Source: Oceanimonas aquatica (GTDB taxonomy: Bacteria > Pseudomonadota > Gammaproteobacteria > Enterobacterales > Aeromonadaceae). From it: 64,000 nt of DNA. Shown piece by piece: positions 7,800 through 27,731 of the stretch. A program made the translations under genes and the position numbers. The stretch is from NCBI RefSeq assembly GCF_030732065.1, contig NZ_JAVBHX010000005.1, forward strand, positions 186,001 through 250,000. Direction: 5' to 3'. Under the pieces are notes generated by a model. That model ran no database searches and was not told the origin of the DNA. It was given only the letters and a program-made list of their open reading frames with translations. How positions within the stretch are numbered: the stretch's first letter is position 1; every line of letters begins with the position of its first letter.

Positions 7800-8927
7800 T
7801 TATTCGGCCTGCAAGGCACTCTCTCCAAACCGTGCCAGCTGCATTTCTTTCAGCCGGCTTAGGGTGCGACGAAACGGAAATGCCAGGGCGCCATCAAGGT
7901 AGAGTTCATCCATCGGCACCGCCGCGTCTATGTAAAGTGGTATGCTGCGGTCGTAGCATTCGTCCACCAGAGCGATAAAGCGGCGCACGCCGTCGTCCTG
8001 GCGGGACAATGCCGGCAGTATGCGATCACCGGCGGCCACTCGCACGGCACCGTCTTCGGTACCCCGAGCTATGGAATTTTGCCGGCTGTCGCAACTGAGC
8101 CGGGGCACGTCACTGAGCAATACCTGCTCAAACTGGTCGCACAACACAATAAAATCCTGGGCCGCCAATGGCTGTTCGCACAGATCGGCATAACGGCACC
8201 AGAGCCCCCGCTCGCTGCGGCCAAGTACGGCAATGGGCCGGTTGCCCAGTATAAGTGGCTCGGTGTTTTTGGCCTTACCGGCCACTTGCTCAAACACGGC
8301 GGCAAGCGCCTCAGGCTCCTGTACCCAATAGCGCTGGTGCTGCTGCCCCGGGTGCAGGCGATGATCCTGCTCGCCGTGCATCGGCACCACTTGCATATGT
8401 TCGGTCATGGCGGTCACCGCCGGCAAAAACTGCGCCCGGTTAAAGCCGTCGGCATACAACCCCTCGGGGTGCTGGTTGGAGGTGGTGACCAGCACCAGCC
8501 CCTGCTCAAACAGGTGCCGCAGCAGCCGGCCCAGCAACATGGCATCGCCAATGTCGCTGACAAACAGCTCGTCCAGGCACAATACCCGCACCTCGGCACT
8601 CAGCTCCTGGGCCAGCACCTTGAGCGGATCTTCGGTGCCGGTGAGCTGAAACAGCCGCCGGTGCAGCTGCTGCATAAAGTGATGAAAATGCAGCCGCCGG
8701 GCCGGCACACCGGCGCCTTGCAGGCTGGCAAAAAACCGGTCCATCAGCCAGGTCTTGCCCCGGCCCACCGGCCCCCACAGATACACGCCCTGTGTGCCCG
8801 GTTCATCGGCCAGTACACCACGGTAACAACCTTCCAGCCACTCGGCTGCATGACGCTGGGCGGCATCCTCGACAAAACCGGACTCAAGGGCGGCAGAATA
8901 GGCGGCGTAGGGGGATAAGGGGGTCAT
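7800..8927 (-). CDS. zapE: Cell division protein ZapE (AFG1-like AAA ATPase)
   Basis: ATPase that acts on the FtsZ ring during late division and under stress in E. coli. The 375 residues match the family length. Walker A is GPVGRGKTWLM (about 53-63) and Walker B is VLCLDELFVSD. The sensor stretch LVLVTTSNQHPEGLY and the C-terminal RFIALVDECYDRSIPLY are family hallmarks. The ATG at 8925-8927 has AGGAG five bases upstream. It is convergent with the winged-helix gene and is the last core-like gene before the AT-rich kinase region. Confidence 0.94.
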   Translation of the reverse strand: MTPLSPYAAYSAALESGFVEDAAQRHAAEWLEGCYRGVLADEPGTQGVYLWGPVGRGKTWLMDRFFASLQGAGVPARRLHFHHFMQQLHRRLFQLTGTEDPLKVLAQELSAEVRVLCLDELFVSDIGDAMLLGRLLRHLFEQGLVLVTTSNQHPEGLYADGFNRAQFLPAVTAMTEHMQVVPMHGEQDHRLHPGQQHQRYWVQEPEALAAVFEQVAGKAKNTEPLILGNRPIAVLGRSERGLWCRYADLCEQPLAAQDFIVLCDQFEQVLLSDVPRLSCDSRQNSIARGTEDGAVRVAAGDRILPALSRQDDGVRRFIALVDECYDRSIPLYIDAAVPMDELYLDGALAFPFRRTLSRLKEMQLARFGESALQAE

Positions 8928-8973: not shown

Positions 8974-8996
8974 TAAAAAGAGCCAATCACGAGGCT
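8974..8996 (-). terminator. Possible weak terminator after the kinase
   Basis: On the minus strand AGCC (8993-8996) pairs with GGCT (8981-8984) around an 8-base loop, followed by C and a T5 run. It overlaps the kinase stop codon. The stem is only four bases, so this is tentative. Confidence 0.3.
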
Positions 8997-10003
8997 ATGT
9001 TTTACGGACCTCATCAAAATATGGATGCTCCATCGCTTCTCTTGCTGTCAATCTTTCCTGGTGATCAACTTTCAATACTTTAGAGATCAGATCCAATGCC
9101 AAGTTAGATTTAAGAGCAGAGTCTGAACGCATCAAAACAAGCCTGCCTTCCTCGCTGGGGTTAACAATAGCCCCCAGAATTTCCTCACTAACTCCATTCA
9201 GACCATACTTTTCAATGTAATTCCAAAACTCATTTTCACCAAGCAAGCCAGAAATATTGCGTAGCAATTCAACATTAGACTTATCTCTACCTTTTACAAA
9301 AGGAAAAGAATTACAAACAAGGCCAGCGAAAATGCAAGCAAAAGACCACATATCCAAAGAGTAATCATATTGCTTCATGCCAAGCAAAAGCTCAGGAGCT
9401 CTATAATGATAAGAACTAACAGTAATGGGATATTCACTATAAGTGATGATAAAAGTCAGCCATACCCCAGTCAATAATCTTTAAACGACTTCTCTTTCTG
9501 TTAATGACAATATTAGCAGGCTTAATATCTCGATGTATAACGCCTCTACTGTGAGCTTCATCCAACCCGTTAAGAAGCTGAAACATGTACTCTTTAACTT
9601 CAGCTTCAGAAATAGGTGTGTTATTTTTTATTAACCTGTCATCAACGTAATAGTTAATGACAATATACTTTTCACTACCAGAGTTCCCTTTTACCGAATC
9701 GAAAATATGGGCATTATTCTTACTACCCTTTATACGCTTGAGTATAGACACTTCTCTTTTTATTTTTCCGGGGTTACCCTTCATTATCCTTTTTATAGCA
9801 ACATTAGCCTCCGACTTTTTATGAACACCTTTAAAGACTTCAGAAAAAGTTCCTTCGCCGAGTTTTTTACCTAATGTATAACCTTCAATACTCCCCCAAT
9901 TAACCACCTTGGACTTATAATTACAGCCTGCTTCACTCCCTGAGCAGTTAATATTTTGATAATTCCTGGATATTGATTTTTTACCAGCACCTTTCTTATA
10001 CAT
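8995..10003 (-). pseudogene. CK2-like serine/threonine protein kinase, frame split by a +1 shift
   Basis: The sequence reads as a complete eukaryotic-type kinase once one base is skipped near 9437-9445. Frame one (10003 to 9437, 188 residues) has the glycine loop KLGEGTFSEVFKG (48-59), Lys71 in VAIKR, Glu84 in KREVSIL, the catalytic loop HRDIKPANIV (157-166) and DWG at 178-180, ending FYHHL then TAG TGA. The next frame continues SEYPITVSSYHYRAPELLL, YDYSLDMWSFACIFAG and LTAREAMEHPYF. The DWG motif and the last two stretches are hallmarks of casein kinase 2 alpha rather than PknB-like bacterial kinases, and the spacing across the shift matches CK2 exactly. All catalytic residues are intact. 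The gene is very AT-rich (18 G/C in the 60 bases 9601-9660) and starts 9 bases after the fusion gene, whose stop overlaps its AAAGAG ribosome site. It may be a decayed gene, a sequencing error, or a recoded gene. Confidence 0.8.
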
Positions 10004-10012
10004 TCTAGTTCA

Positions 10013-13000
10013 CTACTCTTTCAACGAAGAAAACTCTGACAAACGCTTAAGCGCATTCACAACCTCGCTTAAACGAATGCCGTTGGACGACTTCACCAAT
10101 AGTAGATCCCCTTCCTGCAAATCCTGCCGAAGGCCGCTCATCACGGCTCCAGACCGCTCAAACCAGCTGCATGAAACGCCCTGCTCACTCAACCGCTCAG
10201 CTACCGCTTTCATGTAAGTACCAACCAGATATACCTTGTCGGGTGAACTCCTGACAATGTCAGGAACCAACTTCAAATGATACTGCTGTGCTCGCTGTCC
10301 CAGCTCCAGCATATCTCCGAGCACCAACAAAACGCGCCCCCGGTGAGCAAGCGCTGTCAGCTGTTGAAACGCTGCCACCATGGACAAGGGGTTGGCGTTA
10401 TAGCTGTCATCCAGCAACATGACACGCTTGTCATCAATATTTAACGGCAGCAATTCCCCTCGTCCTTCCACCGGTTTCAATGCAGTGCAACCTTCAGTAA
10501 TCACCTCCAGGGGTATACCAAGATGCCGGGCCAGGATCAGGCATACCAGGCTATTCACCGCAAAATGACGGCCAGCCATTCCTAATGAGTATTCAAGCTC
10601 ACGCCCCAGATAACTCACCACAGCCTGTCCATGCTTGCCATCAAAAGCCAGCAACCGGCAATCAGCCTGCTCATGTTCACCATAAGTGATAAGAACAAGT
10701 CCTTCCGCCTGCGCCCGTACCGCTATTTCATCGTAATGGGCGGTATCACGGCACACAATGGCCAAGCCGCCCCGGCGTACACCTTTGAAAAGCTTTGCCT
10801 TCCTGGCGGCAATAGCAATCGTACCTTCGTTACCACGCAGGTGAGCCGGACCAATATTGGTGATCACCGCCACATCGGGGGCAAGCAGTTTGACGCTTCT
10901 AGACTCTCTGGCATTGATGGCGGACACGGCCACCTCCAGTACGGCCAGCTGTGCCGATGGCGGTATGCTCGCCATTACCGCAAAGATACCTACGCGGGAA
11001 TTGTAGTTATCGTAGGTGGAATGAGCTTCCAGCCGCTCCGAGAATAACTGTTGGATCATGGATACCAGTGTTGTTTTGCCCGCACTGCCGGTCACTGCCA
11101 CCAAGGGACAAGACAATCTCTGCCGGGACGCGATACCCAGCTCAATAAACGCCTTGACGGGATCTTCCACCATCAATACCGGCAATTCCTTTGGCAAGCC
11201 GGCTACCGGGCGGCTAACAATCACCCCGACCACTACCTTGGGCAGCCCTTTCAGTACATGATGACTGTCCCAGCCACGTCGGTAGCAATTGGCAATCGCT
11301 GAATATTGTTCATGACGAGCCAGCTCGAGCGAGGTGGACGCCACATACAGGGTAGGAGACTTCACCATGGCAGCATGGCTTCGCCCCCGTATCACTGAAT
11401 TCACATGCCAGTCATCGAGGGGAGGCGTCAGCCAGCTTCCGCCGGTTACTGCCTGCAATTGTTCTGCATCCCAGGCATATTGCTGCTCCTTATTAAAAGG
11501 CAGCCAGGAAAAATCTTTGCGATAGCCGCTCTGAATAAAGGGCCAACGCATGGCCGGCTTTTCGGGCAACCCCAAACCAAAATGAATGGGCAGCCTGAGC
11601 CGGGCACTTTCGGATCCCGAAGCAGTGAGTAGCCTCAGTTGTAAATGCAGCTCGGTATTAACCCACTCCTTTCTTACAGGAGGGCGAATACCGTAAAAAT
11701 CCCGATAGATAACGCCGGGTTGCCACCGACTGGCAGGGTGCACCCAGTCGCAGAAGTCGTGATCCATCCCCAGCCCCCAGGGCTTGAGATTTTCTTCCCA
11801 GGTTGGCACCGCCGTTACTTCCAGCCGGAAGTCTTCATCCACTGGGGCATCGATGTACCAGAAGCTTTCGACCCAGATCATTTGTCGTTGTGTTATCCAA
11901 CGGGGACCGGCTTTAAGCCCCAGTAAAGTAAAAGGTCCCAAAGTGACCGGGTCCATCTTCGCTTCCAGGGGCACTTCTTTTACCGCCCAGGAAGAGTCCA
12001 GCACTGAAGCCCAGAGCTTGGATGAAGGCCGAAAAGTCTTGGACGGAAGAGGCGCGAGACATGTGCTTCGCGGCGTCGAGTGTATTTCCAGCACAGCGGT
12101 GCCATCATCGTTTGATTCAAAGCGAGTATTGAAAGGCTGACACCTTTTGGTGAACAGGTTCAATATATTCTGCGCTCTGCTTCCCTCTGCCTGCCATGAG
12201 TGACCAAAACCCACTTCGACCGGAACAAAAATGATCCGTTCAACCCCTTTATTGCTTAACTCCAGTTGAAAGATGCCGCCATACTTGGGAGAAGAACGCA
12301 CCGCATCAAACAGCAGATCGCCAGCATCGTAGATAATCGGCCTCTGTCGATACAGCTCCACCCCATGCAAACGGTGAGCAGAAGCACCCAATACGGCATC
12401 GGCACCGGCATCAATTAACGCATGTCCTGCCGCTATCTGTGACTCACTGGGGTGAACGGCATGGTTGGCTCCCCAGTGCACACAGACCAGCACGATATCT
12501 GCCGTTTCCCGCGCCCTGTCGATGCGGTGCTTCATTTGCTGCCAGGCGGTCGTATCCTGCAATGACAGATAAGCCGTACCCGGATTATTCCCGGTAACGG
12601 CGAAACTTTGCTGGGTGGCATCCACCGCCATCAGAGCCAACCGCAATGCCCCAAACTGTCGAAATAGAGGCCGGAAGGCCGATTCCAGATTCTCTCCCGA
12701 GCCAATCTGCTCAATGCCCGTCGCAGCCAGCCAGCGCTGCTGATCAAGGAGTCCGTCAGAACCATAGTCACCACTGTGGTTATTGGCCGTGGTCACCACA
12801 TCAACACCCGCCCGGACCAGCACCTCCAGCATCTCGGGGCGAGCGCGATAGTAGTAGGGTCCCCCCTCGCCCTTATCCACTCCTTGCTCTCCCTGTGTGG
12901 TGACCACGCACTCCAGGTTAATAAGGCTCAAGTGGGACTCTCTTAGTACCGGGATATTCAGCACTTTCTCTGCCCCCAGTTTGGCTGTGCGATAATGCTG

Positions 13001-14827
13001 TCGCCGTCCCAGATTGACATCTCCCCCCCAGGCCAGCAGCACGGACTCAGTTTCAGGCTCTGCAGAAAAAGGTTTAGTTGAACCCTCTTCCTCCAGACTT
13101 CTGAGCAATGCCCAATAAGCCACATACCCCGAAAGATAATGCTCAACATCATCAATCCTTACTCGAAATGAATGATGTCGAATAAAAAAGCTGCCCAGTA
13201 CTGTTTCAGGCTCGGCAAAGTACATGGCAAATTCGGGCCAGAAAAAGCCGTTCATCAGATAATTGGCCCGGGCGTGCAATGCCGTATAAAACGCTTCTTC
13301 ATCAAAATCTTGCAGCAGATGCTGCATCTCAGGCAACTGCTTGATGCGATCCAGCGTATGATGAAAGGCCATGCTCAGTTCAAGCAGGGTCGGATAGGTA
13401 GTTCGTCTGTTTTGGATGAAATCGAGATAGCCCGCGATATTGTTAACCGCAAAACGGAAGTACTTTTCTGCCGGACGATAACGAGTCAGCTCATTCACAC
13501 AGTAGGAAAGCCAGTGATCATGGGCTTGCCAGTGTTTATTATCTATAAAGTAATCAAAAGCACGTTCAACCAACTTCAGCCAGCGTTCATTTTTCGTTAA
13601 ACCATACAAACGCATCAGTCCGAACGCGGTTTCGCCATCGTAATAAATAATACGAAACGGCTCTTTAATGGAAAGATCTTCCGCATTCAGAACATGTACA
13701 AACTGCCCAGTATCGGTGTGCTGCATCAGTTCAATGCCCACCGCCAAGGATTCCATTAGTGATAAATAACGTTCATCATTGGTCAACTCGGTGTACTTCA
13801 CCATGGCCAGCAGGCAAACAGCGTTGCCTCCCAGCTTGATTTCGTTACCGGTGTCTACCAGGTAGGCCGCCTGCTGTTCACTATTAAGCGGGTAAGTATG
13901 GATCAGCTCATTGGCAAGGCATGCAAGGGCACGATCGATGGCGACTTTCAGCTCATCATTCTTTGTCAGCTCCCAGGCTTCAAGCATGGCGTACGTAGTA
14001 CTGGCATGGCGCAGCGCATTGTAATTGGAAATTTTGCGGCCAAAGCAGGGAAAGTAGCCATAAATGAACTTGCCCGACGGCATCACCTGCCGGGCAAGAA
14101 AGGAAGCACCGCGATTCACCAGGCTGAATACCTGCTCCGAGTTCAGCAGCCCGGGCTGACGCCGGCCACCATTACGCCCCGGACCAGCCAGCGCAATACC
14201 CTTGCTGCTAGCCCCTGGCAAGTCATCAAGGCCCGGATCCCGCGCATAGAATCGCCCACGAGTGGAAAACATATATACAGGGGCATCATCATTCACATTC
14301 AGAACCAGTCGGTTACCAAAACGTTTTTTGGCATAGGCAGCCAGGTTTTTCTGATTCAGGCTGGCATGAGGCACTTCACTACCGGCATAAAGAATGGCGT
14401 TGGCATTCAGTTCCTGCTCCAGCAGTGCCTGCTCAAAATCTTCAGAAAAGGAAAGGCCATAGCGGAAGTAGTTGCGCTTGGTTCTGCTCAGAAGGTCATT
14501 CAGCTCGGCTTGCTTCATGGGCTTGATCCTGGTAACCCAGTCTACTCGCAGCCACTTTACCGGAAGAGCAGTATCGGTATCTGCCTGGCGGCATACCTCC
14601 TCCCCTTTCTCCCAAGCCTCTTCAAAATCATGTCCGACAGCGGTTATCACACGGGCCTTTTCATGCCCATTGCTCAGGGAGAAAAACAGCACCATCCTCG
14701 GAAAAAGCGGTTCAGGAATGTCACTTGATGTGCGGGTCCTTTCAACCTTGATGGCCCGCACCCGCTCAAAAAGATGAGAAAGCTCGGCATACGCCTGCTC
14801 AAGTAATGTGTTCAACACCTCAATCAC
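10013..14827 (-). CDS. Giant fusion: unknown domain, helical toroid-like domain, CapA-like phosphoesterase and MurF-like ligase
   Basis: A 1604-residue protein with at least four parts. Residues 1-215 are unrecognised. Residues about 225-580 are helix-rich, with recurring hairpins (STTYAMLEAWELTKNDE, RIIYYDGETAFGLMRLYGL) like an alpha/alpha toroid. Residues about 596-870 are a CapA/PGA-cap metallophosphoesterase: GGDVNLGR, LINLEC, TTANNHSGDYG, VHWGANH and GASAHRLHG. Residues about 930-1100 are unassigned and perhaps a beta domain. Residues about 1138-1604 are a complete MurF-like ligase: P-loop VTGSAGKTT (Lys1251), ITNIGPAHL, GRHFAVNSL, DDSYNANP and LVLGDMLELG. CapA and Mur-ligase-like CapB act together in poly-gamma-glutamate synthesis, so an amide-bond-forming role is plausible, but no signal peptide or membrane helix is seen. 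The GTG at 14825-14827 is the only candidate start I find, with a poorly spaced GGGAG. It is followed by the kinase in the same operon. Confidence 0.8.
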   Translation of the reverse strand: MIEVLNTLLEQAYAELSHLFERVRAIKVERTRTSSDIPEPLFPRMVLFFSLSNGHEKARVITAVGHDFEEAWEKGEEVCRQADTDTALPVKWLRVDWVTRIKPMKQAELNDLLSRTKRNYFRYGLSFSEDFEQALLEQELNANAILYAGSEVPHASLNQKNLAAYAKKRFGNRLVLNVNDDAPVYMFSTRGRFYARDPGLDDLPGASSKGIALAGPGRNGGRRQPGLLNSEQVFSLVNRGASFLARQVMPSGKFIYGYFPCFGRKISNYNALRHASTTYAMLEAWELTKNDELKVAIDRALACLANELIHTYPLNSEQQAAYLVDTGNEIKLGGNAVCLLAMVKYTELTNDERYLSLMESLAVGIELMQHTDTGQFVHVLNAEDLSIKEPFRIIYYDGETAFGLMRLYGLTKNERWLKLVERAFDYFIDNKHWQAHDHWLSYCVNELTRYRPAEKYFRFAVNNIAGYLDFIQNRRTTYPTLLELSMAFHHTLDRIKQLPEMQHLLQDFDEEAFYTALHARANYLMNGFFWPEFAMYFAEPETVLGSFFIRHHSFRVRIDDVEHYLSGYVAYWALLRSLEEEGSTKPFSAEPETESVLLAWGGDVNLGRRQHYRTAKLGAEKVLNIPVLRESHLSLINLECVVTTQGEQGVDKGEGGPYYYRARPEMLEVLVRAGVDVVTTANNHSGDYGSDGLLDQQRWLAATGIEQIGSGENLESAFRPLFRQFGALRLALMAVDATQQSFAVTGNNPGTAYLSLQDTTAWQQMKHRIDRARETADIVLVCVHWGANHAVHPSESQIAAGHALIDAGADAVLGASAHRLHGVELYRQRPIIYDAGDLLFDAVRSSPKYGGIFQLELSNKGVERIIFVPVEVGFGHSWQAEGSRAQNILNLFTKRCQPFNTRFESNDDGTAVLEIHSTPRSTCLAPLPSKTFRPSSKLWASVLDSSWAVKEVPLEAKMDPVTLGPFTLLGLKAGPRWITQRQMIWVESFWYIDAPVDEDFRLEVTAVPTWEENLKPWGLGMDHDFCDWVHPASRWQPGVIYRDFYGIRPPVRKEWVNTELHLQLRLLTASGSESARLRLPIHFGLGLPEKPAMRWPFIQSGYRKDFSWLPFNKEQQYAWDAEQLQAVTGGSWLTPPLDDWHVNSVIRGRSHAAMVKSPTLYVASTSLELARHEQYSAIANCYRRGWDSHHVLKGLPKVVVGVIVSRPVAGLPKELPVLMVEDPVKAFIELGIASRQRLSCPLVAVTGSAGKTTLVSMIQQLFSERLEAHSTYDNYNSRVGIFAVMASIPPSAQLAVLEVAVSAINARESRSVKLLAPDVAVITNIGPAHLRGNEGTIAIAARKAKLFKGVRRGGLAIVCRDTAHYDEIAVRAQAEGLVLITYGEHEQADCRLLAFDGKHGQAVVSYLGRELEYSLGMAGRHFAVNSLVCLILARHLGIPLEVITEGCTALKPVEGRGELLPLNIDDKRVMLLDDSYNANPLSMVAAFQQLTALAHRGRVLLVLGDMLELGQRAQQYHLKLVPDIVRSSPDKVYLVGTYMKAVAERLSEQGVSCSWFERSGAVMSGLRQDLQEGDLLLVKSSNGIRLSEVVNALKRLSEFSSLKE

Positions 14828-15037: not shown

Positions 15038-18000
15038 TTATTGATCGATTGCCCCCTGAGAACCGGTTGAGTCAAATGGATCTTCCATCAGCGGATCCCC
15101 CGCATCTCCTGAGAATCCCGAATCAGGAGCTCCGCCGCTGTCTCCAGAGCCTGCCGGCTTACCAGTCTCGTCTGAACCAGCGTCATTCAATCCAAGGTCA
15201 TCGTCATCACCGGAAAGCAGACTGCCGACCTCCAACGGTTTTCCTTGTCCTTGCTGCTCTTCTGCATTGCCGGACTCCGACGTTTTATCCGTATCATTGT
15301 CTGCAGGCATGGGAATCGTATCGTCTTCTTCATCAGCAAAGAAGCTCAGTGCCCGAGGACTTTCTCCCTCTGAAGCCTCTCCTTGATGCTCTACAGTTTG
15401 ATCACCGGTGCTCTGCGAGTCATCATCTTCCGTTTGTTCCTCTTCGGATTGTTGAGGAGTGCCCTGCTTGAGCATTTTACCTTTATCCGGTTTACCACTA
15501 GGTTCTTTTTCGCTCCCTGCAGAGGCAGCATCATCCTCGCCACCCTGAGCAGACCAGTCAATATCTACATTACTGCCATTCCAGGTGCCTTCGTAATCCT
15601 GATCATTATGCGCTTCCGGATTATCAACCGGCATATCAGCAGCACTAACCTCTTGCCAGCTATCCCCTTCCAGCTTGATATGGGTGTAATCCTTTCCGCC
15701 TTTAATGGTGTAGCCAACAACAGCACCACCAGATCCATTCTCAATCTCGGCAATCAGATCCTGTGGCTGAGCGGCATTCTTTATGCCGTCAACCTTATAG
15801 TCGAGCTTAACTTCCTTAAGGCTTCCATCCTTGCCTTCGACATAGAAGGTGGCATTTGAGATAGCGTGATCCAGCGGGTCCAGGTCGTTATCCGCATTAG
15901 CTCCCGAATCCGAGTCGGCATCCGCATCGGCATCAGCGTCCGAATCCGAGTCAGCATCTGCATCGGCATCCGAATCCGAGTCAGCATCTGCATCAGCATC
16001 GGCGTCCGAATCCGAGTCAGCATCGGCATCAGCGTCCGAATCCGAGTCGGCATCTGCATCAGCATCAGCGTCCGAATCCGAGTCAGCATCTGCATCGGCA
16101 TCCGAATCCGAGTCAGCATCTGCATCGGCATCAGCGTCCGAATCCGAGTCGGCATCGGCATCGGCGTCCGAATCCGAGTCAGCATCTGCATCGGCATCCG
16201 CGTCCGAATCCGAGTCGGCATCGGCATCGGCATCAGCATCCGCGTCGGCGTCAGAATCCGAGTCAGCATCTGCATCGGCATCGGCGTCCGAATCCGAGTC
16301 GGCATCTGCATCGGCATCAGCATCCGAGTCGGCATCGGCATCGGCGTCCGAATCCGAGTCGGCATCGGCATCAGCGTCCGAATCCGAGTCAGCATCAGCA
16401 TCGGCGTCAGAATCCGAGTCAGCATCCGCATCGGCATCGGCATCAGCGTCTGCGTCGGCGTCGGCGTCAGAATCCGAGTCAGCATCCGCATCGGCATCGG
16501 CATCAGCGTCTGCGTCGGCATCAGCGTCGGCGTCGGCGTCAGAATCCGAGTCAGCATCTGCATCGGCGTCCGCATCCGCGTCCGCATCGGCATCCGCGTC
16601 AGCGTCGGCATCAGCATCAGCATCGGCGTCTGCGTCGGCATCCGCGTCAGCATCCGCATCCGCATCGGCATCGGCATCGGCATCAGCGTCAGCATCCGCA
16701 TCGGCGTCTGCGTCTGCGTCGGCATCGGCATCAGCATCAGCGTCAGCATCAGCGTCGGCATCGGCGTCGGCATCCGCGTCCGCATCGGCATCCGCGTCCG
16801 CATCGGCATCCGCGTCAGCGTCGGCATCTGCATCGGCATCCGCGTCAGCATCCGCATCGGCGTCTGCGTCGGCATCGGCATCCGCGTCGGCGTCAGCATC
16901 TGCATCTGCATCGGCGTCTGCATCGGCATCAGCGTCGGCATCAGCGTCGGCGTCAGCATCGGCATCCGCGTCAGCATCCGCGTCGGCATCGGCATCCGCG
17001 TCGGCGTCAGCGTCGGCATCAGCATCAGCATCCGCGTCAGCGTCGGCATCCGCATCAGCGTCAGCGTCAGCATCCGCATCCGCATCCGCGTCAGCATCGG
17101 CATCGGCATCCGCGTCAGCGTCGGCGTCGGCGTCGGCGTCAGCATCTGCATCGGCGTCGGCATCCGCATCGGCGTCTGCGTCGGCATCTGCATCCGCATC
17201 AGCGTCTGCATCGGCATCCGCATCGGCATCGGCATCAGCGTCGGCATCGGCATCCGCATCCGCATCGGCATCGGCGTCGGCGTCGGCGTCGGCGTCGGCA
17301 TCAGCGTCGGCATCCGCATCAGCGTCTGCATCGGCATCCGCGTCAGCATCCGCATCGGCGTCTGCGTCGGCATCGGCATCAGCGTCAGCATCTGCATCAG
17401 CGTCGGCGTCAGCATCTGCATCGGCGTCTGCATCGGCATCAGCGTCGGCGTCAGCATCGGCGTCAGCATCGGCGTCGGCATCGGCATCAGCGTCGGCGTC
17501 GGCATCAGCATCCGCATCCGCGTCAGCGTCGGCATCCGCGTCGGCGTCAGCATCTGCATCGGCGTCGGCATCCGCATCGGCGTCTGCGTCGGCATCTGCA
17601 TCCGCATCAGCGTCGGCGTCAGCATCTGCATCCGCATCGGCGTCTGCATCCGCATCCGCATCCGCGTCGGCATCCGCATCGGCGTCTGCATCTGCGTCGG
17701 CGTCAGCATCTGCATCCGCATCGGCGTCTGCATCCGCATCCGCATCCGCGTCGGCATCCGCATCGGCGTCTGCATCTGCGTCGGCGTCAGCATCGGCGTC
17801 AGCGTCGGCATCAGCATCGGCGTCGGCATCCGCATCAGCGTCTGCATCTGCATCGGCATCCGCATCGGCGTCGGCATCAGCATCCGCGTCAGCATCCGCA
17901 TCCGCATCCGCATCCGCGTCAGCGTCGGCATCCGCGTCAGCGTCGGCGTCAGCATCTGCATCGGCGTCGGCATCCGCATCGGCGTCGGCATCCGCATCAG

Positions 18001-18811
18001 CGTCTGCATCTGCATCGGCATCCGCATCGGCGTCGGCGTCGGCGTCAGCATCCGCATCCGCATCCGCGTCAGCGTCGGCATCCGCGTCGGCGTCAGCATC
18101 TGCATCGGCGTCGGCATCCGCATCGGCGTCTGCGTCGGCATCTGCATCCGCATCAGCGTCGGCATCAGCGTCGGCGTCAGCATCTGCATCCGCATCCGCA
18201 TCCGCGTCGGCATCCGCATCGGCGTCTGCATCTGCGTCGGCATCTGCGTCGGCATCTGCATCAGCGTCAGCATCCGCATCGGCGTCTGCATCCGCATCCG
18301 CGTCGGCATCGCTGTCTTCAGCAGCTACGTCATCAAAAGCAGTTCCGGCTCCCACCAATGTTTCAAATGGGCTAACCGGTTCAATATCAAAATCAAATGC
18401 AAGGGGGTCGACGGTCTCGGCAACACGGGTGAGTGTCACAACAGAGCTGCCACCTCCCGTTGGAGCACCGGCCAGACCTGCAGCAGGCGCTTCCAGCTCT
18501 TCCAGCAGATCATCGCCATTTTCCAGTGCCGCCAGCACGGCCTCCACGCTGGGGTCGAGTAACGCGCTTTCCTGTACTTCGGGCTCGGCCGAGGCCAGCA
18601 TGTTCGGGGTCATCTGTAATAACTGATTACTGCCGAATTGCACGGTTTCGTTATCGCCGTAATCAATCACCACACTGGCATTGTCACCGGTGATCAGCCG
18701 TTCACCGGCAAACAGAGTGTCACCAGCAGCCAGATCACGAATGGAACCATCCGCCGCCTGTGCCGTTACCTGGCCGCTAACTTCGGTTACCACTGCAATT
18801 GGAATACTCAT
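15038..18811 (-). CDS. LapA-like biofilm adhesin with a long Asp-Ala dipeptide repeat
   Basis: A 1257-residue, highly acidic type I secretion substrate. Residues 1-125 are the retention module of LapA-type adhesins ([33 protein letters not shown]). They end in [10 protein letters not shown], where PAAG at 109-112 fits the LapG cleavage pattern Ala-Ala-Gly. Residues about 165-969 are almost pure Asp-Ala, with Asp-Ser-Asp-Ser insertions spaced every 8-16 residues in the last third. The final 288 residues include a folded-looking part ([20 protein letters not shown]) and an acidic, Gly/Ser-rich tail. There are no Ig-like domains, VWA domain or RTX nonapeptides, and no classic C-terminal secretion signal is visible. 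It is divergent from its secretion operon; lapD and lapG close the cluster. Surface attachment controlled by c-di-GMP is inferred. Confidence 0.85.
15905..18319. repeat. 2.4-kb hexanucleotide repeat array (GAYGCN) inside the adhesin gene
   Basis: On the minus strand the six-base unit GA(T/C)GCN is repeated for about 2.4 kb, encoding Asp-Ala throughout. Third positions vary (GCA, GCC, GCG and GCT all occur). Towards the low-coordinate end the unit is broken by GACTCGGATTCG-like blocks encoding Asp-Ser-Asp-Ser at 30-50-base spacing, giving a higher-order period. Because the unit is six bases, gain or loss of units keeps the frame. Confidence 0.93.
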
Positions 18812-19069: not shown

Positions 19070-20467
19070 ATGAATCCATTTAAATCTTGTGCAGTACTGA
19101 TTGCCGGCCTGTGTGCCGGTATGGCCTGGGCCCAGCCACCGGCCAGCAATGCAGCCGACGTGGTCAGAAAGGCCATTGATACGAACCCCGAAGTTCAGGC
19201 CAGCTGGCGCACCTTTCGTGCTGCCGAATACGACATCGACTTTGCCAAAGGCGGCTACCTGCCCACCGCCGATGTAACTGCCGGCTATGGCAAGCAATGG
19301 CGCAACTATGACGATCCCAGGGAGTTCAGCGGTGCCGCCGCCGAAATCTTCGTGGTACAGATGCTGTATGACGGCTTTAAAACCTCCAGCGATGTAAAAC
19401 GCTTTGAAAACGCCCAGCTGGTGCGCTATTTCGAGCTGCTGACGCAGCTTGAAGACACAGCCCTGGCTTCCGTGCGCGCCTATCAGGATGTACAACGCTA
19501 TCGGGAGCTCGTTGCCCTGGCCGAAGAAAACCTGGCCAGCCACCTTGAGGTATATGAGCAGATTGAAGTCAGTGCCCGGGCGGGCGTTGCCCGGCGCGCT
19601 GATCTCGAGCAGGCCAGCGGTCGGGTATCGCTGGCCGAGTCCAACCTGCTGACGGAACTGGCCAACCTGCACGATGTGAGCGCCCGCTACCTGCGCATTG
19701 TGGGTGAGCTGCCGGCTGCCGACATGGCGCCGCTGGAGCTGAACAACAGCAAACTGCCTGTTAGCCTGCAAGAAGCCATGACCCTGGCCTACCAGGGCAG
19801 CCCGGCGTTTCATGCTGCTCTGCGCAATATCGAGGCGCAAAATGCCGCCATCGACAGCCAGAAAGCCGCCTTTCATCCGGAGCTGAACCTGAGCGCCAGA
19901 TACGGTACTCAGGATTATGTTAACGGTGAGGTGGATGAGCGCCGCAATGAAGGCCGCATTGGTCTGGATCTGCGCTACAACCTGTACCGTGGCGGCCGTG
20001 ATCAGGCCAGCCTGAACAAGGCCAGTGAAGAGTTCAACCAGGCCCGGGATCTGCGGGATAAGGCCTGTATCGACATGCGCCAGACTCTGCAAATTGCCTA
20101 TAACGACGTACAAAAGCTTGATCAGCAACTACCCATTCTGAACCAGCACCGGTTATCCTCCAACCGGGTTCGGGCCGCCTACAAGGGCCAGTTCGGTATC
20201 AGCGAGCGCACCCTGCTGGATGTACTTGATGCGCAAAACGAGTATTTTCAGGCCAGCAGAGCTTACACCAATGCGGTATACGACCGGGGCACGGCCATTG
20301 CCAGAACCCTGACCGCCATGGGCCAGTTGTTACCGGCGCTGGAAGTGGTCAGTAACGATCTGCCTACCCTGAACGAACTGGGTGCCGAGCCCATGACAGT
20401 GGATGCGGAGTCGGCCTGTCCGGCCGATAACATCACTGCCATGGCCCGCTACAGCCCGGCCCGGTAA
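19070..20467 (+). CDS. TolC-family outer-membrane channel of the Lap type I secretion system (LapE-like)
   Basis: Outer-membrane exit duct for the adhesin. It has 465 residues with a clear signal peptide (ending AGMAWA before QPPAS). Two OEP repeats follow, containing long amphipathic helices (for example VRKAIDTNPEVQASWRTFR, and QASLNKASEEFNQARDL in the second half). The ATG at 19070 has no strong ribosome site. The 258 bases upstream are shared with the divergent adhesin gene and must hold both promoters; I see no clear operator there. It is the first gene of a run that continues with the ABC exporter, adaptor, LuxR-like protein and a small protein. Confidence 0.92.
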   Translation: MNPFKSCAVLIAGLCAGMAWAQPPASNAADVVRKAIDTNPEVQASWRTFRAAEYDIDFAKGGYLPTADVTAGYGKQWRNYDDPREFSGAAAEIFVVQMLYDGFKTSSDVKRFENAQLVRYFELLTQLEDTALASVRAYQDVQRYRELVALAEENLASHLEVYEQIEVSARAGVARRADLEQASGRVSLAESNLLTELANLHDVSARYLRIVGELPAADMAPLELNNSKLPVSLQEAMTLAYQGSPAFHAALRNIEAQNAAIDSQKAAFHPELNLSARYGTQDYVNGEVDERRNEGRIGLDLRYNLYRGGRDQASLNKASEEFNQARDLRDKACIDMRQTLQIAYNDVQKLDQQLPILNQHRLSSNRVRAAYKGQFGISERTLLDVLDAQNEYFQASRAYTNAVYDRGTAIARTLTAMGQLLPALEVVSNDLPTLNELGAEPMTVDAESACPADNITAMARYSPAR

Positions 20468-20494: not shown

Positions 20495-22636
20495 ATGCCA
20501 CAAGCAAGACATCAAGAGCAACCAGGTGGTCCCCTGCTGGGATGCCTGCTGATATTGTGCCGCCTGCATGAGCGCAAGCTGACCCCGGATGCCGCCCTGG
20601 CCGGCCTGCCGCTGGTCGACAACGCGCTCACGCCCTCGGTGTTTCACCGGGCAGCGCGGCGTGCGGGGCTGACCAGCCGGGTACAACGCCATTCCCTGGC
20701 TGCACTCAATTCGTCGCTGTTGCCCGCAGTCTTGCTGTTCAACGACCACACCGCCTGTGTCATCACCGGCATCAATAACGAGCAACAAACGGCGCGAGTG
20801 ATCTGGCCGGAGCTGGCTGATGCCGAGGTGACGGTGCCGCTCGACAGCCTGGAGCAGCAATATACCGGCAACCTCATCTACGCCCAGCCCGAATTTCACT
20901 TTGATGAGCGGGCTCCCGGCAACTCTCGACGGGCACAGGGGCACTGGTTCTGGAGTGTGATCGCCGACAACCGCCATTTGTACCGTGACATCATCATCGC
21001 CGCCATCATGATCAACCTGCTGGCGGTGGCCATGCCGCTGTTTGTCATGAACATCTACGATCGGGTGGTGCCCAACCACGCCACCCACACCCTGTGGGTG
21101 CTGGCGGTGGGCGTACTGGTGGTGCTCTGTGCCGATCTGGGATTACGCCTGATGCGGGGCTGGTTTGTCGATCTCGGCGCCAGCCGGGCCGATGTCAGGC
21201 TGTCGGCGTCCATCATGGAACAGATCCTCGGCATGAAACTGTCGGAGCGGCCCGCCTCGGCCGGCTCCTTTGCCAGCAATGTGCAGTCTTTTGAGTCGGT
21301 GCGCGGCTTTATCGGCTCGGTCACCCTGGTGGCGCTGGTTGACCTGCCCTTTATGCTGGTGTTTTGCCTGATCATCGGGCTTATCAACGGCCTGCTGGTC
21401 ATTCCCATCATCGTTGGCGCACTGGCGGTGCTGGGCTATGCCGCTCTGGCTCAGCGCAAAATGCGCAAGTTGTCAGACACCATGAACCGTGCCAGCGCCA
21501 TGCGCAACGCCACCCTTATCGAAAGCCTCGGCAACCTGGAAACCATCAAGACCACAGGCGCCGAAAGCAAAATGCAGGGTAACTGGGAAAACAGCATTCT
21601 GTTTTTGTCAAAACTTACCACCCGAATGCGTCTGCTGGCCTCATCGGTCAGCAATGGCGCGCTCTGGGCCCAGCATGTGGTGGCGGTCAGCCTGATTATT
21701 CTCGGGGTTTACCTGATCCGCGAAGGCCAGCTCACTCAGGGCGGACTGATCGCCTGTTATCTGCTGTCTTCACGGGCCATGAGCCCCGTTGGTCAGGCCG
21801 CGGCATTGCTGTCCCAGTATCATCATGCGGTCACCGCCATGGACAGCCTGAACGGCATCATGGCGCGCCCGCGGGAGCGCAGCAATGACCGCCACCGGGT
21901 CAGCCGCCCCATTCAGCAGGGCGACATTGAATTTCGCCATGTAAACTTTACCTACCCCAACGCCGAGCGGCCGGCGCTGACCGATGTAAGCTTTCGCATT
22001 CGAGCCGGCGAGCACGTGGCCATACTGGGCCGCAACGGCTCGGGCAAAAGCACCCTGGAGCGGCTGATGCTGGGGCTGTACGAGCCCGATGCCGGCACCA
22101 TACTGATGGACGGCACCGATATTCGCCAGCTGGATCCGGCCGAGCTGCGACGCGGCATGGGCTATGTGCCTCAGGATGTTTCCCTGTTTTACGGCACCCT
22201 GCGCGACAACCTGGTGCTGGGCATGCCCCATGTGGAGGATGCACATATGGTGCAGGCCGCTGAGCAAAGCGGCCTGTCCGACTTCATCAATACCCACCCA
22301 TCCGGTTTTGACATGCAGGTGGGTGAGCGCGGCCAGCTGCTATCCGGCGGCCAGCGCCAGGCGGTGGCCATCGCCCGGGCCCTGCTCAAGGAGTCCCCGG
22401 TGCTGTTGCTCGACGAACCCACCGGCTCCCTCGATCAGCGCAACGAAGAGCAGATTAAGCACAGTCTGCAGCACTGCGCCAAAGGGCGGACCATGGTACT
22501 GGTGACCCACCGCAGCACCCTGCTGAGCCTGGTGGATCGCATTATAGTGGTCGACAACGGCCAGGTGGTGGCCAACGGACCCAAGGCCGAGGTACTCGAC
22601 GCACTGCGCCAGGGCAAAATCGGGAGTGCCGCATGA
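20495..22636 (+). CDS. Type I secretion ABC exporter with inactive C39-like domain (LapB-like)
   Basis: Inner-membrane ABC exporter expected to energise adhesin secretion. The 713 residues comprise a C39-like domain (1-130) and membrane domain (about 150-430). The nucleotide-binding domain follows (from about 465), with Walker A ILGRNGSGKST, signature LLSGGQRQAVAIA and Walker B VLLLDEPTGSLD. In the C39-like domain the position of the protease Cys appears to be Pro (GGPLLGCLLILCRLH), so it should bind rather than cleave substrate, as in LapB and HlyB. The next gene overlaps by four bases. Confidence 0.93.
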   Translation: MPQARHQEQPGGPLLGCLLILCRLHERKLTPDAALAGLPLVDNALTPSVFHRAARRAGLTSRVQRHSLAALNSSLLPAVLLFNDHTACVITGINNEQQTARVIWPELADAEVTVPLDSLEQQYTGNLIYAQPEFHFDERAPGNSRRAQGHWFWSVIADNRHLYRDIIIAAIMINLLAVAMPLFVMNIYDRVVPNHATHTLWVLAVGVLVVLCADLGLRLMRGWFVDLGASRADVRLSASIMEQILGMKLSERPASAGSFASNVQSFESVRGFIGSVTLVALVDLPFMLVFCLIIGLINGLLVIPIIVGALAVLGYAALAQRKMRKLSDTMNRASAMRNATLIESLGNLETIKTTGAESKMQGNWENSILFLSKLTTRMRLLASSVSNGALWAQHVVAVSLIILGVYLIREGQLTQGGLIACYLLSSRAMSPVGQAAALLSQYHHAVTAMDSLNGIMARPRERSNDRHRVSRPIQQGDIEFRHVNFTYPNAERPALTDVSFRIRAGEHVAILGRNGSGKSTLERLMLGLYEPDAGTILMDGTDIRQLDPAELRRGMGYVPQDVSLFYGTLRDNLVLGMPHVEDAHMVQAAEQSGLSDFINTHPSGFDMQVGERGQLLSGGQRQAVAIARALLKESPVLLLDEPTGSLDQRNEEQIKHSLQHCAKGRTMVLVTHRSTLLSLVDRIIVVDNGQVVANGPKAEVLDALRQGKIGSAA

Positions 22637-23955
22637 ACCCGCAAAAACCCCATTCGCACACCGGTCGCAACTGGGCTCAGGATGCCCAGTGGGCTCGCAT
22701 GCAGCAGGAGCCGGTGCGCGCCCGCGCCCTGCTCTATGCCATGGCAGCGGTATTGCTCGCCCTGCTGATCTGGTCTGCCTTTGCGCCGCTGGATGAAGTC
22801 ACCCGGGGCGAAGGCCGGGTCATTCCTTCACGGCAGTTGCAGGTGGTGCAGTCCCTCGACGGCGGCATAGTGCAGCAGATACTGGTGAAGGAAGGACAAA
22901 CGGTGGAAGCCGGCGAAGTGCTGTTGCGTATCGATCCCACCCGCTCCGTGTCCAGTCTGAACGAAAGCCGGGTGCAATACCTGTCCGCCAGCGCCGAGGT
23001 GGCCCGGCTGCAGGCACTGATTGACAATACCGAGCCGGTGTTTGCCGATGACCTGCACCAGCAGGCACCTGAGCTTATCAGCCGGGAGCTGCGTCTGTAC
23101 AAGGCCAGCCAGGAAGAGCTGGACGAGCAACGCGCCATTTACAATCATCAGCTCAGCCAGCGACAACAGGATCTGGTTGAAGCTCAGGCCGAGCTGAAGC
23201 AACACACCCAGTCGCTGGCACTTAGCCAGAAGGAGCTGAGGGTCACCCGGCCACTCTTGGAGCTCGGCGCCGTGTCCGATGTGGACATTCTGCGTATTCA
23301 GCGGGAGATCGGCCGGGCCCGGGGCGATGCCGAACGGGCCCGGGCCGCCATCAGCCGAAGCAAAGCCGCCATTGAAGAAGCCCGCAACAAGATTCGGGAA
23401 ACCGAGCTCAACGTCACCAACCGCTGGCGCCGGGAATACCTGACCGCCAAGGCCCGGCTCGACGCCCTTGGCGAGGCCGAATCGGCGCTGGAAGACCGGG
23501 TGGAGCAAACCGAAATCCGGGCCCCGGTGCGGGGCACGGTGCAGCGCCTGTTTGCCAATACCGTGGGGGGCGTGGTGTCTCCCGGCCGTGAAGTACTGGA
23601 GCTGATCCCGCTGGATGACGAGCTGATCATCGAAGCCAAAATCCAGCCCAAGGACATCGCCTTTATTCGCCCCGGGCAGGACGCCATGATCAAGTTTACC
23701 GCCTACGATTTTGCCATTTATGGCGGCCTGGATGCTGAAGTCAGGCACATCAGTGCCGATACCATCAGGGACGAAGACGGTAACAGCCATTATCTGGTGC
23801 GGCTGGCCACCCAGCGTGCCGGCCTGGCGGATGATCTGGCCATTATTCCCGGCATGATCACCGAGGTTGATATTCTCACCGGCAAAAAGACTGTCCTGGA
23901 ATACCTGCTCAAGCCCGTACTCAGAGCCACCTCAAGAGCGATGACCGAACGATGA
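22633..23955 (+). CDS. HlyD-type membrane fusion protein of the Lap secretion system (LapC-like)
   Basis: Periplasmic adaptor between the ABC exporter and the TolC-like channel. Its 440 residues comprise a short cytoplasmic tail, one membrane helix (about 35-55, LLYAMAAVLLALLIWSAFA) and the lipoyl motif VKEGQTVEAGEVLLRID. A long coiled coil (about 140-280) and a second lipoyl half (IRAPVRGTVQRLFANTVGG) follow. The C-terminus ends in the HlyD-typical GMITEVDILTGKKTVLEYLLKPV. The four-base overlaps with both neighbours show one translational unit. Confidence 0.94.
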   Translation: MNPQKPHSHTGRNWAQDAQWARMQQEPVRARALLYAMAAVLLALLIWSAFAPLDEVTRGEGRVIPSRQLQVVQSLDGGIVQQILVKEGQTVEAGEVLLRIDPTRSVSSLNESRVQYLSASAEVARLQALIDNTEPVFADDLHQQAPELISRELRLYKASQEELDEQRAIYNHQLSQRQQDLVEAQAELKQHTQSLALSQKELRVTRPLLELGAVSDVDILRIQREIGRARGDAERARAAISRSKAAIEEARNKIRETELNVTNRWRREYLTAKARLDALGEAESALEDRVEQTEIRAPVRGTVQRLFANTVGGVVSPGREVLELIPLDDELIIEAKIQPKDIAFIRPGQDAMIKFTAYDFAIYGGLDAEVRHISADTIRDEDGNSHYLVRLATQRAGLADDLAIIPGMITEVDILTGKKTVLEYLLKPVLRATSRAMTER

Positions 23956-24914: not shown

Positions 24915-24932
24915 AGGCCGGTCAGCCGGCCT
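24915..24932. terminator. GC-rich hairpin between convergent lap genes
   Basis: AGGCCGG (24915-24921), loop TCAG, CCGGCCT (24926-24932). It lies right after the small gene and overlaps the lapD stop. There is no T run on either side, so it may only slow or process convergent transcripts. Confidence 0.35.
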
Positions 24933-26847
24933 GCCGTATACCCGGCCCTCCGGCGGCATCAAAGCCCAGCGCCAGCAGCAACTCACGCTCCGCCGGTGAC
25001 TGTACGCCATCGGCAATCATGCACAGGCCAATGGAGTGCCCCAGCGAACAGAGCCCCCGTAAAAAGCCCTGATTGCCCTCATGCTCGGGCAGGTTTCGCA
25101 GCAAGGCGCCGTCCACTTTGAGGTAATCCAGCCCCAGCTCCTGCAGATGTGCAATTTTGGCAAAGTCGCGCCCGGCCCGCTCCATGCCCAGCCGGCAGCC
25201 CAGTGGCTTGACCTGTACACAAAATTCCCTGAACAGCGACACCTCACGAATAACCTGACTTTCCGCAAATTCCAGCCACAGCATGGGGGCCAGCTCCCCC
25301 GCCTCGGTGAGCAGGGCCATCAGTTGCTGCCGGCTGGCAGGCTGGCGCAGGGTCTCCATCGACAGGTTGATGGCCACCGGCTGTGGCGTGCCGCAGCGCA
25401 GGCCGTTCAGTACGGTTTCCACCATGGCCACATCAAAGGCCGGCAACAACCCCAGCCGTCGGGCCCAGGGCATGAACTCCCCCGCCTTCCAGGTATTGCC
25501 CTGCCATTGCAGCCGCATCATGGCTTCCTCATGCAGGGGCTGATCACCGGCCAATTGCAGTACCGGAAAACGCACCGCCGAAACGGCCTTCGCCGCCAGC
25601 GCCGGTGTCAGCAGCTGGCGCCATTCGCCCGCGCCCTGGTTATCGCTGCCAGAGAAAGTATCCCTGACCTCGGCACAGGTAACACAGCGCTGCTCGGCGG
25701 TGGCCAGCAGGCCATCCACCCGGCTCATCACCTCACCACGACGCTCGCCCGCCAGAAAATAACAGGCGCCGTGAGGCAGTTGTGGCTGCACCTGAGGCCA
25801 GCGCTCAGCCAACGCCCGCAGGCGCAGGTCAAGGGCCGCACTCAGGGTGGACAGCTCTTCGGCCTCGGTCAGCAGCAGCAGGAAGTCGCTGCCGTTGAGC
25901 CTGCCGCCAAGCGCTTCGGCAAACAAGGCCTGCTGGTCGGGCGCCCACTGCAACAGGGCCTCGGCCAGCTCATGCAACAGCCTGTCGGTATCGGCGCGGC
26001 CCAGGGTCCGGTTGATGGTCGCCAGTTCCTGCACCCGCACCAGAAGAATGCCATGGCGGCCATCCTCTTCGCTCAGCAGCGCATCCAGCTGACTGTTGAC
26101 GGTATCGCGGTTGGCCAGTCCGGTCACGGCATCATGCTGATGCTGGTAGCGCAGCGCTTCCAGCCGTCGGGATTCGCTTTCGAGCATGTCCCGCACCCGG
26201 CCCGACAACAGGTTCATGGCCCTTACCAGGCGGCCAAACTCCAGGGTGCGCGGCTCGCTGGAGGTAATAAAGCGGCGTCCGCCAATGGCTTCGGCCTGAT
26301 GAACCACATCCTCGAGCGGTTGAGTGATCTGTTTCAGCAACCAGCTGCCCAGGGCACCGCACAGCAGGGCCACCAGCAACAGCCACCCCAACAGCCGCAG
26401 GGTGGTCTGCCACAGGGCGGCATAGGCCACCTCGGTCAGGCTTTCCACATAGAGAGTACCGTACTGATGCCAGCCATCCTGCACCTGGGCCACTCCCGCC
26501 GGCACCGACAGGGCCGCCAGCTTCACAAACCAGGCGGGCACGGTATCGTGCTGCGCCGCCGGCTCAAACAGCTTGCGTTGCCGTACCTCACCGCTGGGTG
26601 CAATCAGTTCGATGCGCCGGTAGTGGCCGGTATCAAACTGGGCCGCCACCAGCAGCTCGACGGTGACTTCGTCCTTTTCCACCTGAGACAGGGTCAGCGC
26701 CAGCGAGTTGGCATTGTCGATGTTCTTCTGCTGCAACTGTTCCTGATAATAATTGCGTGCACTCAGGGTGCTGATGGTAAAACTGCTCACAAACGCCAGC
26801 AGCATTAACACCGCAATGGCCAGCCACAGCTGTTTGTTCAGTGACAT
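24922..26847 (-). CDS. lapD: LapD-type c-di-GMP receptor (inside-out switch)
   Basis: Inner-membrane receptor that sequesters the LapG protease when c-di-GMP is high, keeping the adhesin on the surface. From the ATG at 26845-26847 (GAAGG five bases upstream) the protein has 641 residues. It starts MSLNKQLWLAIAVLMLLAFV like known LapD, with a periplasmic domain between two membrane helices (about 5-25 and 150-170) and a HAMP region. The GGDEF domain is degenerate (NGSDF). The EAL-type domain is also degenerate, with EAMMRLQW where EALLRW is expected, so it should bind but not make or break c-di-GMP. It lies 40 bases downstream of lapG in the same operon. Confidence 0.93.
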   Translation of the reverse strand: MSLNKQLWLAIAVLMLLAFVSSFTISTLSARNYYQEQLQQKNIDNANSLALTLSQVEKDEVTVELLVAAQFDTGHYRRIELIAPSGEVRQRKLFEPAAQHDTVPAWFVKLAALSVPAGVAQVQDGWHQYGTLYVESLTEVAYAALWQTTLRLLGWLLLVALLCGALGSWLLKQITQPLEDVVHQAEAIGGRRFITSSEPRTLEFGRLVRAMNLLSGRVRDMLESESRRLEALRYQHQHDAVTGLANRDTVNSQLDALLSEEDGRHGILLVRVQELATINRTLGRADTDRLLHELAEALLQWAPDQQALFAEALGGRLNGSDFLLLLTEAEELSTLSAALDLRLRALAERWPQVQPQLPHGACYFLAGERRGEVMSRVDGLLATAEQRCVTCAEVRDTFSGSDNQGAGEWRQLLTPALAAKAVSAVRFPVLQLAGDQPLHEEAMMRLQWQGNTWKAGEFMPWARRLGLLPAFDVAMVETVLNGLRCGTPQPVAINLSMETLRQPASRQQLMALLTEAGELAPMLWLEFAESQVIREVSLFREFCVQVKPLGCRLGMERAGRDFAKIAHLQELGLDYLKVDGALLRNLPEHEGNQGFLRGLCSLGHSIGLCMIADGVQSPAERELLLALGFDAAGGPGIRQAG

Positions 26848-26887
26848 GGCGCCTTCTCCCTGCAAACCCGGTTGGGCATTGTGTATT

Positions 26888-27577: not shown

Positions 27578-27731
27578 TCCGTGCATCCTCAACATGATTC
27601 ATGGGCGCGCGGGCCCGGCGAAGGACTCATCCTAGCATAACGGATTCATTCCGGGCAGATGGTGAAAATGCGCAACACTCGAGCACCGAATGTCATATTC
27701 GGTCGAAATTCCTGGGCTTACCGCCACATAA

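Follow-up and report, generated by a model that had tools for sequence, protein, structure and literature searches.

A CK2-like protein kinase gene in Oceanimonas lies beside genes for a Mur-ligase fusion and a LapA-type adhesin rich in CK2-consensus sites

CK2 is general in eukaryotes and is among the most conserved of their protein kinases. It is a constitutively active, acidophilic enzyme that uses both ATP and GTP. As set out in PMC9608649, its minimal consensus is S/T-D/E-X-D/E, residues R80 and R155 form the pair that binds the acidic residue at P+3, and K68 binds the nucleotide phosphates. A second account gives the motif also as S/T-X-X-D/E/pS and describes hierarchical phosphorylation (PMC8533506). 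For the V. cholerae protein FrhA, the PAAG motif is reported to be required for cutting by LapG (PMC6890996). A search of one open library by titles and the starts of abstracts, which gives no proof of absence, returned among the matches listed no paper on bacterial CK2 or on phosphorylated LapA-type adhesins.

In the window, the 64,000-nucleotide stretch of Oceanimonas aquatica DNA analysed here, two overlapping minus-strand frames at 8995-10003 are the halves of one protein kinase. An initial annotation made from the DNA letters had described these two frames, and the kinase motifs it quoted are present in the translations. The features at this end of the locus are:

9437-10003, minus strand: N-terminal piece (188 aa) of the CK2-like kinase, with the N-terminal segment, Gly loop, VAIK lysine, KIKRE, HRD and DWG
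8995-9474, minus strand: C-terminal piece (159 aa) of the CK2-like kinase, in the other frame, with YDYSLDMWS and DHQERLTAREAMEHPYF
7800..8927, minus strand: zapE/AFG1-like ATPase, the downstream neighbour, which bounds the AT-rich kinase gene

The reading frame of the window genome breaks within the activation segment, in the overlap of the two pieces. Because three relatives are unbroken at the same site, a programmed frameshift is not favoured, and the break is either recent damage or a sequence error.

The kinase gene is present in 4 of the 23 Oceanimonas genomes: the window genome (G000), G006, G008 (O. baumannii) and G013 (O. smirnovii). The last three carry intact copies, single open frames of 333-337 residues that each lie directly downstream of a Mur-ligase fusion. 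A pattern scan of ~85,000 bacterial and archaeal species, which used peptides from the N piece of the window kinase and detects close relatives only, found two, Oceanimonas smirnovii and O. baumannii. Genomes sampled at the wider ranks (75 from the family, 394 from the order, 369 from the class and 398 from the phylum, in samples that overlap and all come from one phylum) gave no further CK2-grade match. Scores against the family alignment are 687-698 bits for the intact copies and 308 and 254 for the two pieces of the window kinase; the best other match reaches 85. Searches with tblastn returned 175 plasmid and 25 phage records, all 200 below 60% identity and none covering 80% of the query; the 20 listed rows of each search show 22-32% identity and are distant kinases. 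Viral-contig scans found no relative. With no close relative in the plasmid, phage or viral-contig searches, a mobile origin was set aside.

Family placement was carried out with the intact relatives, the window pieces being searched singly and unjoined. The intact G006 kinase (P0003) matches CK2 alpha with an E value of 3e-83 (283 bits) over residues 7-332, N-terminal segment included, and in a search of solved structures the best 60 of 2245 matched sequences are all CK2. The two window pieces behave alike: the best PDB match of the N piece is CK2 alpha 6ise (E 2e-36, 129 bits), that of the C piece is again CK2 alpha (E 3e-31, 112 bits), and for each piece all of the best 60 rows are CK2. Identity between the family and CK2 is 36-41% over 320-326 residues, and P0003 aligns gap-free across the activation segment, where the initial annotation had pointed to conserved CK2 spacing. 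Alignment to the N-terminal segment of CK2 places a segment of the same type in the family; its contact with the activation segment is putative. A first tree, built with 19 bacterial kinases, 3 CK2 chains and 4 other eukaryotic kinases, groups the family with CK2 at a support of 98/98, and a second of 46 rows (34 bacterial, 3 CK2 and 4 other eukaryotic kinases) does so at 100/100. Forcing the family to group with bacterial kinases was rejected (AU p 0.011), for a grouping that was chosen after the first tree was known and is the one named in the finding. The kinase is almost certainly a member of the CK2 catalytic (CMGC) family.

The kinase also matches generic models, including the Pfam Pkinase domain, PknB (66-87 bits), a PHROGs serine-threonine kinase family (122 bits) and the PADLOC mad6 model (175-207 bits). 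The PknB and mad6 matches speak for an ordinary bacterial Hanks kinase of the PknB type, or a phage-defence kinase, that only resembles CK2. The mad6 model, however, behaves as a generic one: at E 1e-30 or better it finds matches in 203 of 274 class genomes, with scores of 234-293 bits among the matches listed. Many ordinary bacterial kinases thus outscore the Oceanimonas kinase on it, so that the match, striking at first sight, does not single out a MADS defence kinase (mad6), a reading we set aside. Against either version of this reading stand the CK2 match of 283 bits from one sequence and the placement with CK2 by tree and AU test, and we regard it as very improbable. The initial annotation had called the kinase CK2-like and not PknB-type, and the whole-length match, the two trees and the AU test bear this out: the best match lies in CK2, the tree joins the family to CK2 and not to the bacterial Hanks kinases, and the bacterial members adjoin Mur-ligase fusions, two of which lack the CapA domain. 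A search for the CK2 beta subunit (PF01214) matched in 0 of the 23 genus genomes, and its positive control also matched nowhere. For the kinase of O. smirnovii, AlphaFold2 run on an alignment of two rows gave a model too poor for use (pLDDT 38). Since CK2 is general in eukaryotes and is here confined to part of one genus, we infer that the kinase came from a eukaryote.

The GC content of the kinase gene is 35-39% in all four copies, as compared to 56-62% in the neighbouring zapE. The base counts of the initial annotation, 18 G/C in 9601-9660 and 37 in 8521-8580, are exact; its reading of them as a recent transfer finds no support, as all four copies are AT-rich and their synonymous differences amount to 0.64-0.84 per site. 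The shared composition and the diverged silent sites indicate that AT-richness is a lasting feature of a gene that is no newcomer to the genus. Between G006 and the window, silent-site differences are 0.68 and 0.64 in the two kinase halves, 0.45 in zapE and 0.53 in the first 580 codons of the fusion. The higher value in the kinase may stem from faster change or from exchange between lineages, and simple vertical descent from one acquisition is thus no more than a possible history of the gene. Across both halves the pN/pS ratio of the kinase is 0.21-0.35, and the gene is thus kept under purifying selection within the genus.

For the window genome itself, the break of the frame within the activation segment and the altered residues at R191 and K198 fit a decaying relic that has lost its function. 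We consider this quite possible, if on balance doubtful: the pN/pS of the window pieces (0.24-0.33) falls within the range of the intact pairs, so any decay is recent, and the intact frame is kept in three congeners.

Using CK2 residue numbers assigned through motif alignment, we found that E81, H154, R155, D156, K158, N161, D175, W176 and G177 are kept in all four copies, which thus have DWG (D175-W176-G177) in place of DFG, and that the P+3 anion pair R80/R155 is present in 4/4. Among the P+1 residues, R191 and K198 are kept in the three intact copies and R195 is lost in all four; in the C piece of the window kinase, positions 191, 195 and 198 read T, Y and R, so that 191 and 198 differ from the R and K of the intact relatives. 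The polybasic stretch K74-K77, which is a determinant of acid preference and not of family descent, is basic at two of four positions (74 and 77) in the intact copies and at 77 only in the window copy. At the K68 position, O. baumannii and the broken window copy have Lys while G006 and O. smirnovii have Arg. Two of the three intact copies could therefore be weak or dead enzymes, and this replacement is the strongest sign against their activity. The reduced basic stretch also weighs against activity, and the lost R195 against the acidophilic role proposed below.

Directly upstream of the kinase, with its stop 10 bases from the kinase start, lies the gene for a large fusion protein:

10013..14827, minus strand: CapA/Mur fusion protein, with an N-terminal domain of ~590 aa, PGA_cap (CapA) and MurF-like ligase domains

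The order adhesin, fusion, kinase, zapE is identical in 4/4 kinase genomes, and the first three genes apparently form an operon with the kinase as its third gene. This fixed position beside surface-protein genes bears on the proposal that the kinase acts on the proteins of other cells, such as eukaryotic hosts or grazers, and resembles CK2 by mimicry. The presence of a eukaryotic family inside a bacterium speaks for such a role, which the gene order in 4/4 and the purifying selection inside one genus nevertheless render improbable.

The first ~590 residues of the fusion (13058-14827) have no Pfam match. Beyond the window this domain gave three weak matches in 274 class genomes, and the ORF lists at two of these three loci identified nothing; its AlphaFold2 model was too poor for use (pLDDT 53.7). 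The fusions of G006 (L035:11213-14389, 1058 residues) and O. smirnovii (L006:4801-7992, 1063 residues) are without the CapA domain, which is present in those of the window, O. baumannii and G018 (about 1600 residues). The difference is a domain swap or loss between close relatives. A Pfam run over the fusions of G006 and G018, two type 1 secretion genes and three zapE copies confirmed the domains given here. The CapA part of the "CapA/Mur fusion" of the initial annotation is thus absent from two of the four kinase genomes. The same annotation had named the fusion as the first candidate target of the kinase. We found no S/T-D/E-x-D/E site in the fusion in 5/5 genomes, and for that reason it is a poor candidate.

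Upstream of the fusion lie the adhesin gene and a set of secretion and processing genes:

15038..18811, minus strand: LapA-type adhesin of 1257 residues, with retention module, PAAG, (Asp-Ala)n linker, Ser/Asp block and acidic tail
15905..16549, minus strand: block of SDSD/SDAD units within the adhesin (Ser/Asp block), 215 residues with 33 S/T-D/E-x-D/E sites; coordinates from residue numbers
19070..20467, plus strand: outer-membrane efflux protein, OEP/TolC-like, type 1 secretion (Pfam)
20495..22636, plus strand: type 1 secretion ATPase/permease, LssB type (938 bits, cut-off 693)
22633..23955, plus strand: HlyD-family membrane fusion protein, HlyD_3 (74 bits, cut-off 22)
24922..26865, minus strand: LapD-like c-di-GMP receptor (best NCBIfam match, 425 bits, below the equivalog cut-off of 1020)
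26888..27595, minus strand: LapG-like cysteine protease (best NCBIfam match, 217 bits, below the equivalog cut-off of 320)

The retention module of the adhesin matches NF033682 (E 7.8e-35, 120 bits, cut-off 50), and the body beyond it has no Pfam match. PAAG stands at residue 109 in 5/5 operon adhesins; in 20 further retention-module proteins from the genus, the di-alanine site reads TAAG, PAAG or AAAG. The GGxGxD pattern occurs 0 times in 5/5 operon adhesins (in G018 on the N piece only), a crude test that also gave 0 in 8 of the 20 other retention-module proteins, five of those eight being cut by contig ends. Export of the adhesin by the neighbouring type 1 system is therefore uncertain. Two alternative open frames across the gene, 15781-18309 (minus strand, 842 aa) and 15866-18562 (plus strand, 898 aa), resemble what the (Asp-Ala)n repeat yields when read in other frames and so appear to be artefacts. 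Cyanophycin synthetase decorates poly-Asp, and a Mur-ligase-type enzyme (10013-14827) that adjoins a poly(Asp-Ala) protein recalls it; purely as an idea, the fusion might modify Asp side chains of the adhesin.

There are 37 S-D/E-x-D/E sites in the window adhesin, 47 in that of G006, 55 in O. baumannii and 16 in O. smirnovii, and the densest 60 residues hold 12, 7, 11 and 7 of them, respectively. For comparison, the 20 further retention-module proteins (five truncated at contig ends, four being second copies in the four kinase genomes) hold 0-8 sites, at most 2 per 60 residues, and the DADADA run is absent from all 20; G001:C13, G009:C55, G009:C292, G022:C13 and the below-cut-off match G008:C6 were left out of this comparison. 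Within the window the adhesin is the site-densest of the 40 ORFs of at least 200 residues (3.0 sites per 100 residues, as compared to 0.76 in the next). The Ser units vary by species (SDSD/SDAD, SDDE, SDGE, SDDD) and the consensus is common to all. A tandem arrangement of SD units is one that the hierarchical phosphorylation described for CK2 would suit. Counting S/T sites, the Ser blocks of the window, G006, O. baumannii and O. smirnovii hold 33, 21, 43 and 16, against means of 8.6, 14.5, 10.6 and 5.6 in shuffled blocks, with 0, 63, 0 and 0 of 2000 shuffles as high; these figures overstate the case, because the tandem units depend on one another and, within an (Asp-X)n pattern, every Ser becomes a site. 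The G006 block is barely above shuffling (21 against 14.5, 63/2000 as high), and about half of the 47 sites in that adhesin are single Ser residues within the linker. The O. smirnovii adhesin (L056) contains a run of N (600 in the locus) inside its Ser/acidic block, and its site count is therefore a lower bound. A tail serine in FSDGEDE, aligned by eye, is shared by the three genomes with an intact kinase; in the window Ala takes its place, and G018 lacks it. The distribution of sites suggests that the operon adhesin is a better candidate substrate than the CapA/Mur fusion.

From the observed family, gene order, conservation and presence of a substrate-like block, we propose that the protein may be an acidophilic Ser/Thr kinase, active in the cytoplasm, that phosphorylates serines of the Ser/acidic block of the adhesin before export. 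The neighbouring type 1 system would then export the phosphorylated adhesin, and the cell would present the added negative charge on its surface, where it might serve, for instance, in divalent-cation binding or in adhesion, until the LapG-type protease cut the PAAG site and released the acidic adhesin. Read from the sequences, phosphorylation of the adhesin by an acidophilic kinase before export, taken as a whole mechanism, has in our estimate slightly less than an even chance of being right.

G018 has the same adhesin and fusion genes without the kinase. In its adhesin (L054:11757-13871, minus strand) the (DA)n linker leads straight into the tail and the Ser block is missing; the sites counted in its pieces are two, one at a threonine of the N-terminal piece and one at a threonine of the C-terminal piece, and none is at a serine. 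The frame is broken within the (DA)n linker, by mutation or by assembly, and with the break lying in repeats the missing Ser block may be a misassembly. The correlation of kinase and Ser block comes from five genomes, all related, of which one lacks the kinase, and a single branch of the tree might account for the whole pattern.

A competing account takes the protein for a kinase or pseudokinase of the CK2 family that controls the Mur-ligase fusion or some other protein of the cytoplasm, and sees in the Ser repeats of the adhesin nothing but compositional drift in a linker. Kinase and fusion are immediate neighbours in 4/4, the beta-3 lysine is replaced in two of the three intact copies, and Ala to Ser takes one base change, so that by this reasoning (DA)n can drift to (DS)n, as the single linker serines that make up about half of the G006 sites would fit. 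Yet the fusion has no CK2-consensus site in 5/5 genomes, its domains change between genomes and it occurs without the kinase in G018, while the Ser units are species-specific with a constant consensus, a combination that leaves this account unlikely, if a serious contender. Phosphorylation of the adhesin before export leads to a wider and more tentative suggestion: a captured eukaryotic-family CK2, tuned together with its substrate, may mass-phosphorylate a secreted surface protein, kinase and acceptor repeats being gained and lost jointly. If true, this would show how a bacterium can use phosphorylation to put charge on a surface protein that it secretes. A bacterial CK2 and its likely substrate in one gene row would also make a compact system for learning which residues make kinases acidophilic, and the prediction is sharp: it concerns few congeners, among them one with an intact kinase that has the lysine (O. 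baumannii) and a natural kinase-less control (G018).

Compared with known kinases, the Oceanimonas family shares with eukaryotic CK2 alpha/alpha' the N-terminal segment, the RE motif, HRD, DWG, YDYSLDMWS, the DHQxRLTAxEA block and the P+3 acid-binding pair R80/R155. It differs in that it forms its own branch beside CK2 (three CK2 chains compared), has lost R195, has a reduced basic stretch and, in two copies, Arg for the beta-3 lysine, and is encoded within a bacterial gene row. With PknB-type Hanks kinases it has the Pfam Pkinase domain in common; unlike them it has DWG instead of DFG and a CK2-type N-terminal segment, consists of the kinase domain only (333-337 residues) and is separated in the tree. 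The MADS kinase MAD6, compared here through its PADLOC kinase model, is alike in that this model is matched, but the model is generic. The operon adhesin resembles LapA-type giant adhesins in its Retention_LapA module, its PAAG and the adjoining type 1 secretion and LapG/LapD-like genes; in contrast to them it showed no RTX-type pattern in the crude GGxGxD test, such repeats near the C terminus being usual and not strictly defining, and it has a body made of a (DA)n linker and a Ser/acidic block. If kinase and adhesin do work together, such a system could, by analogy and with similar reserve, be the bacterial equivalent of acidic proteins that are heavily phosphorylated, casein and dentin phosphoprotein among them.
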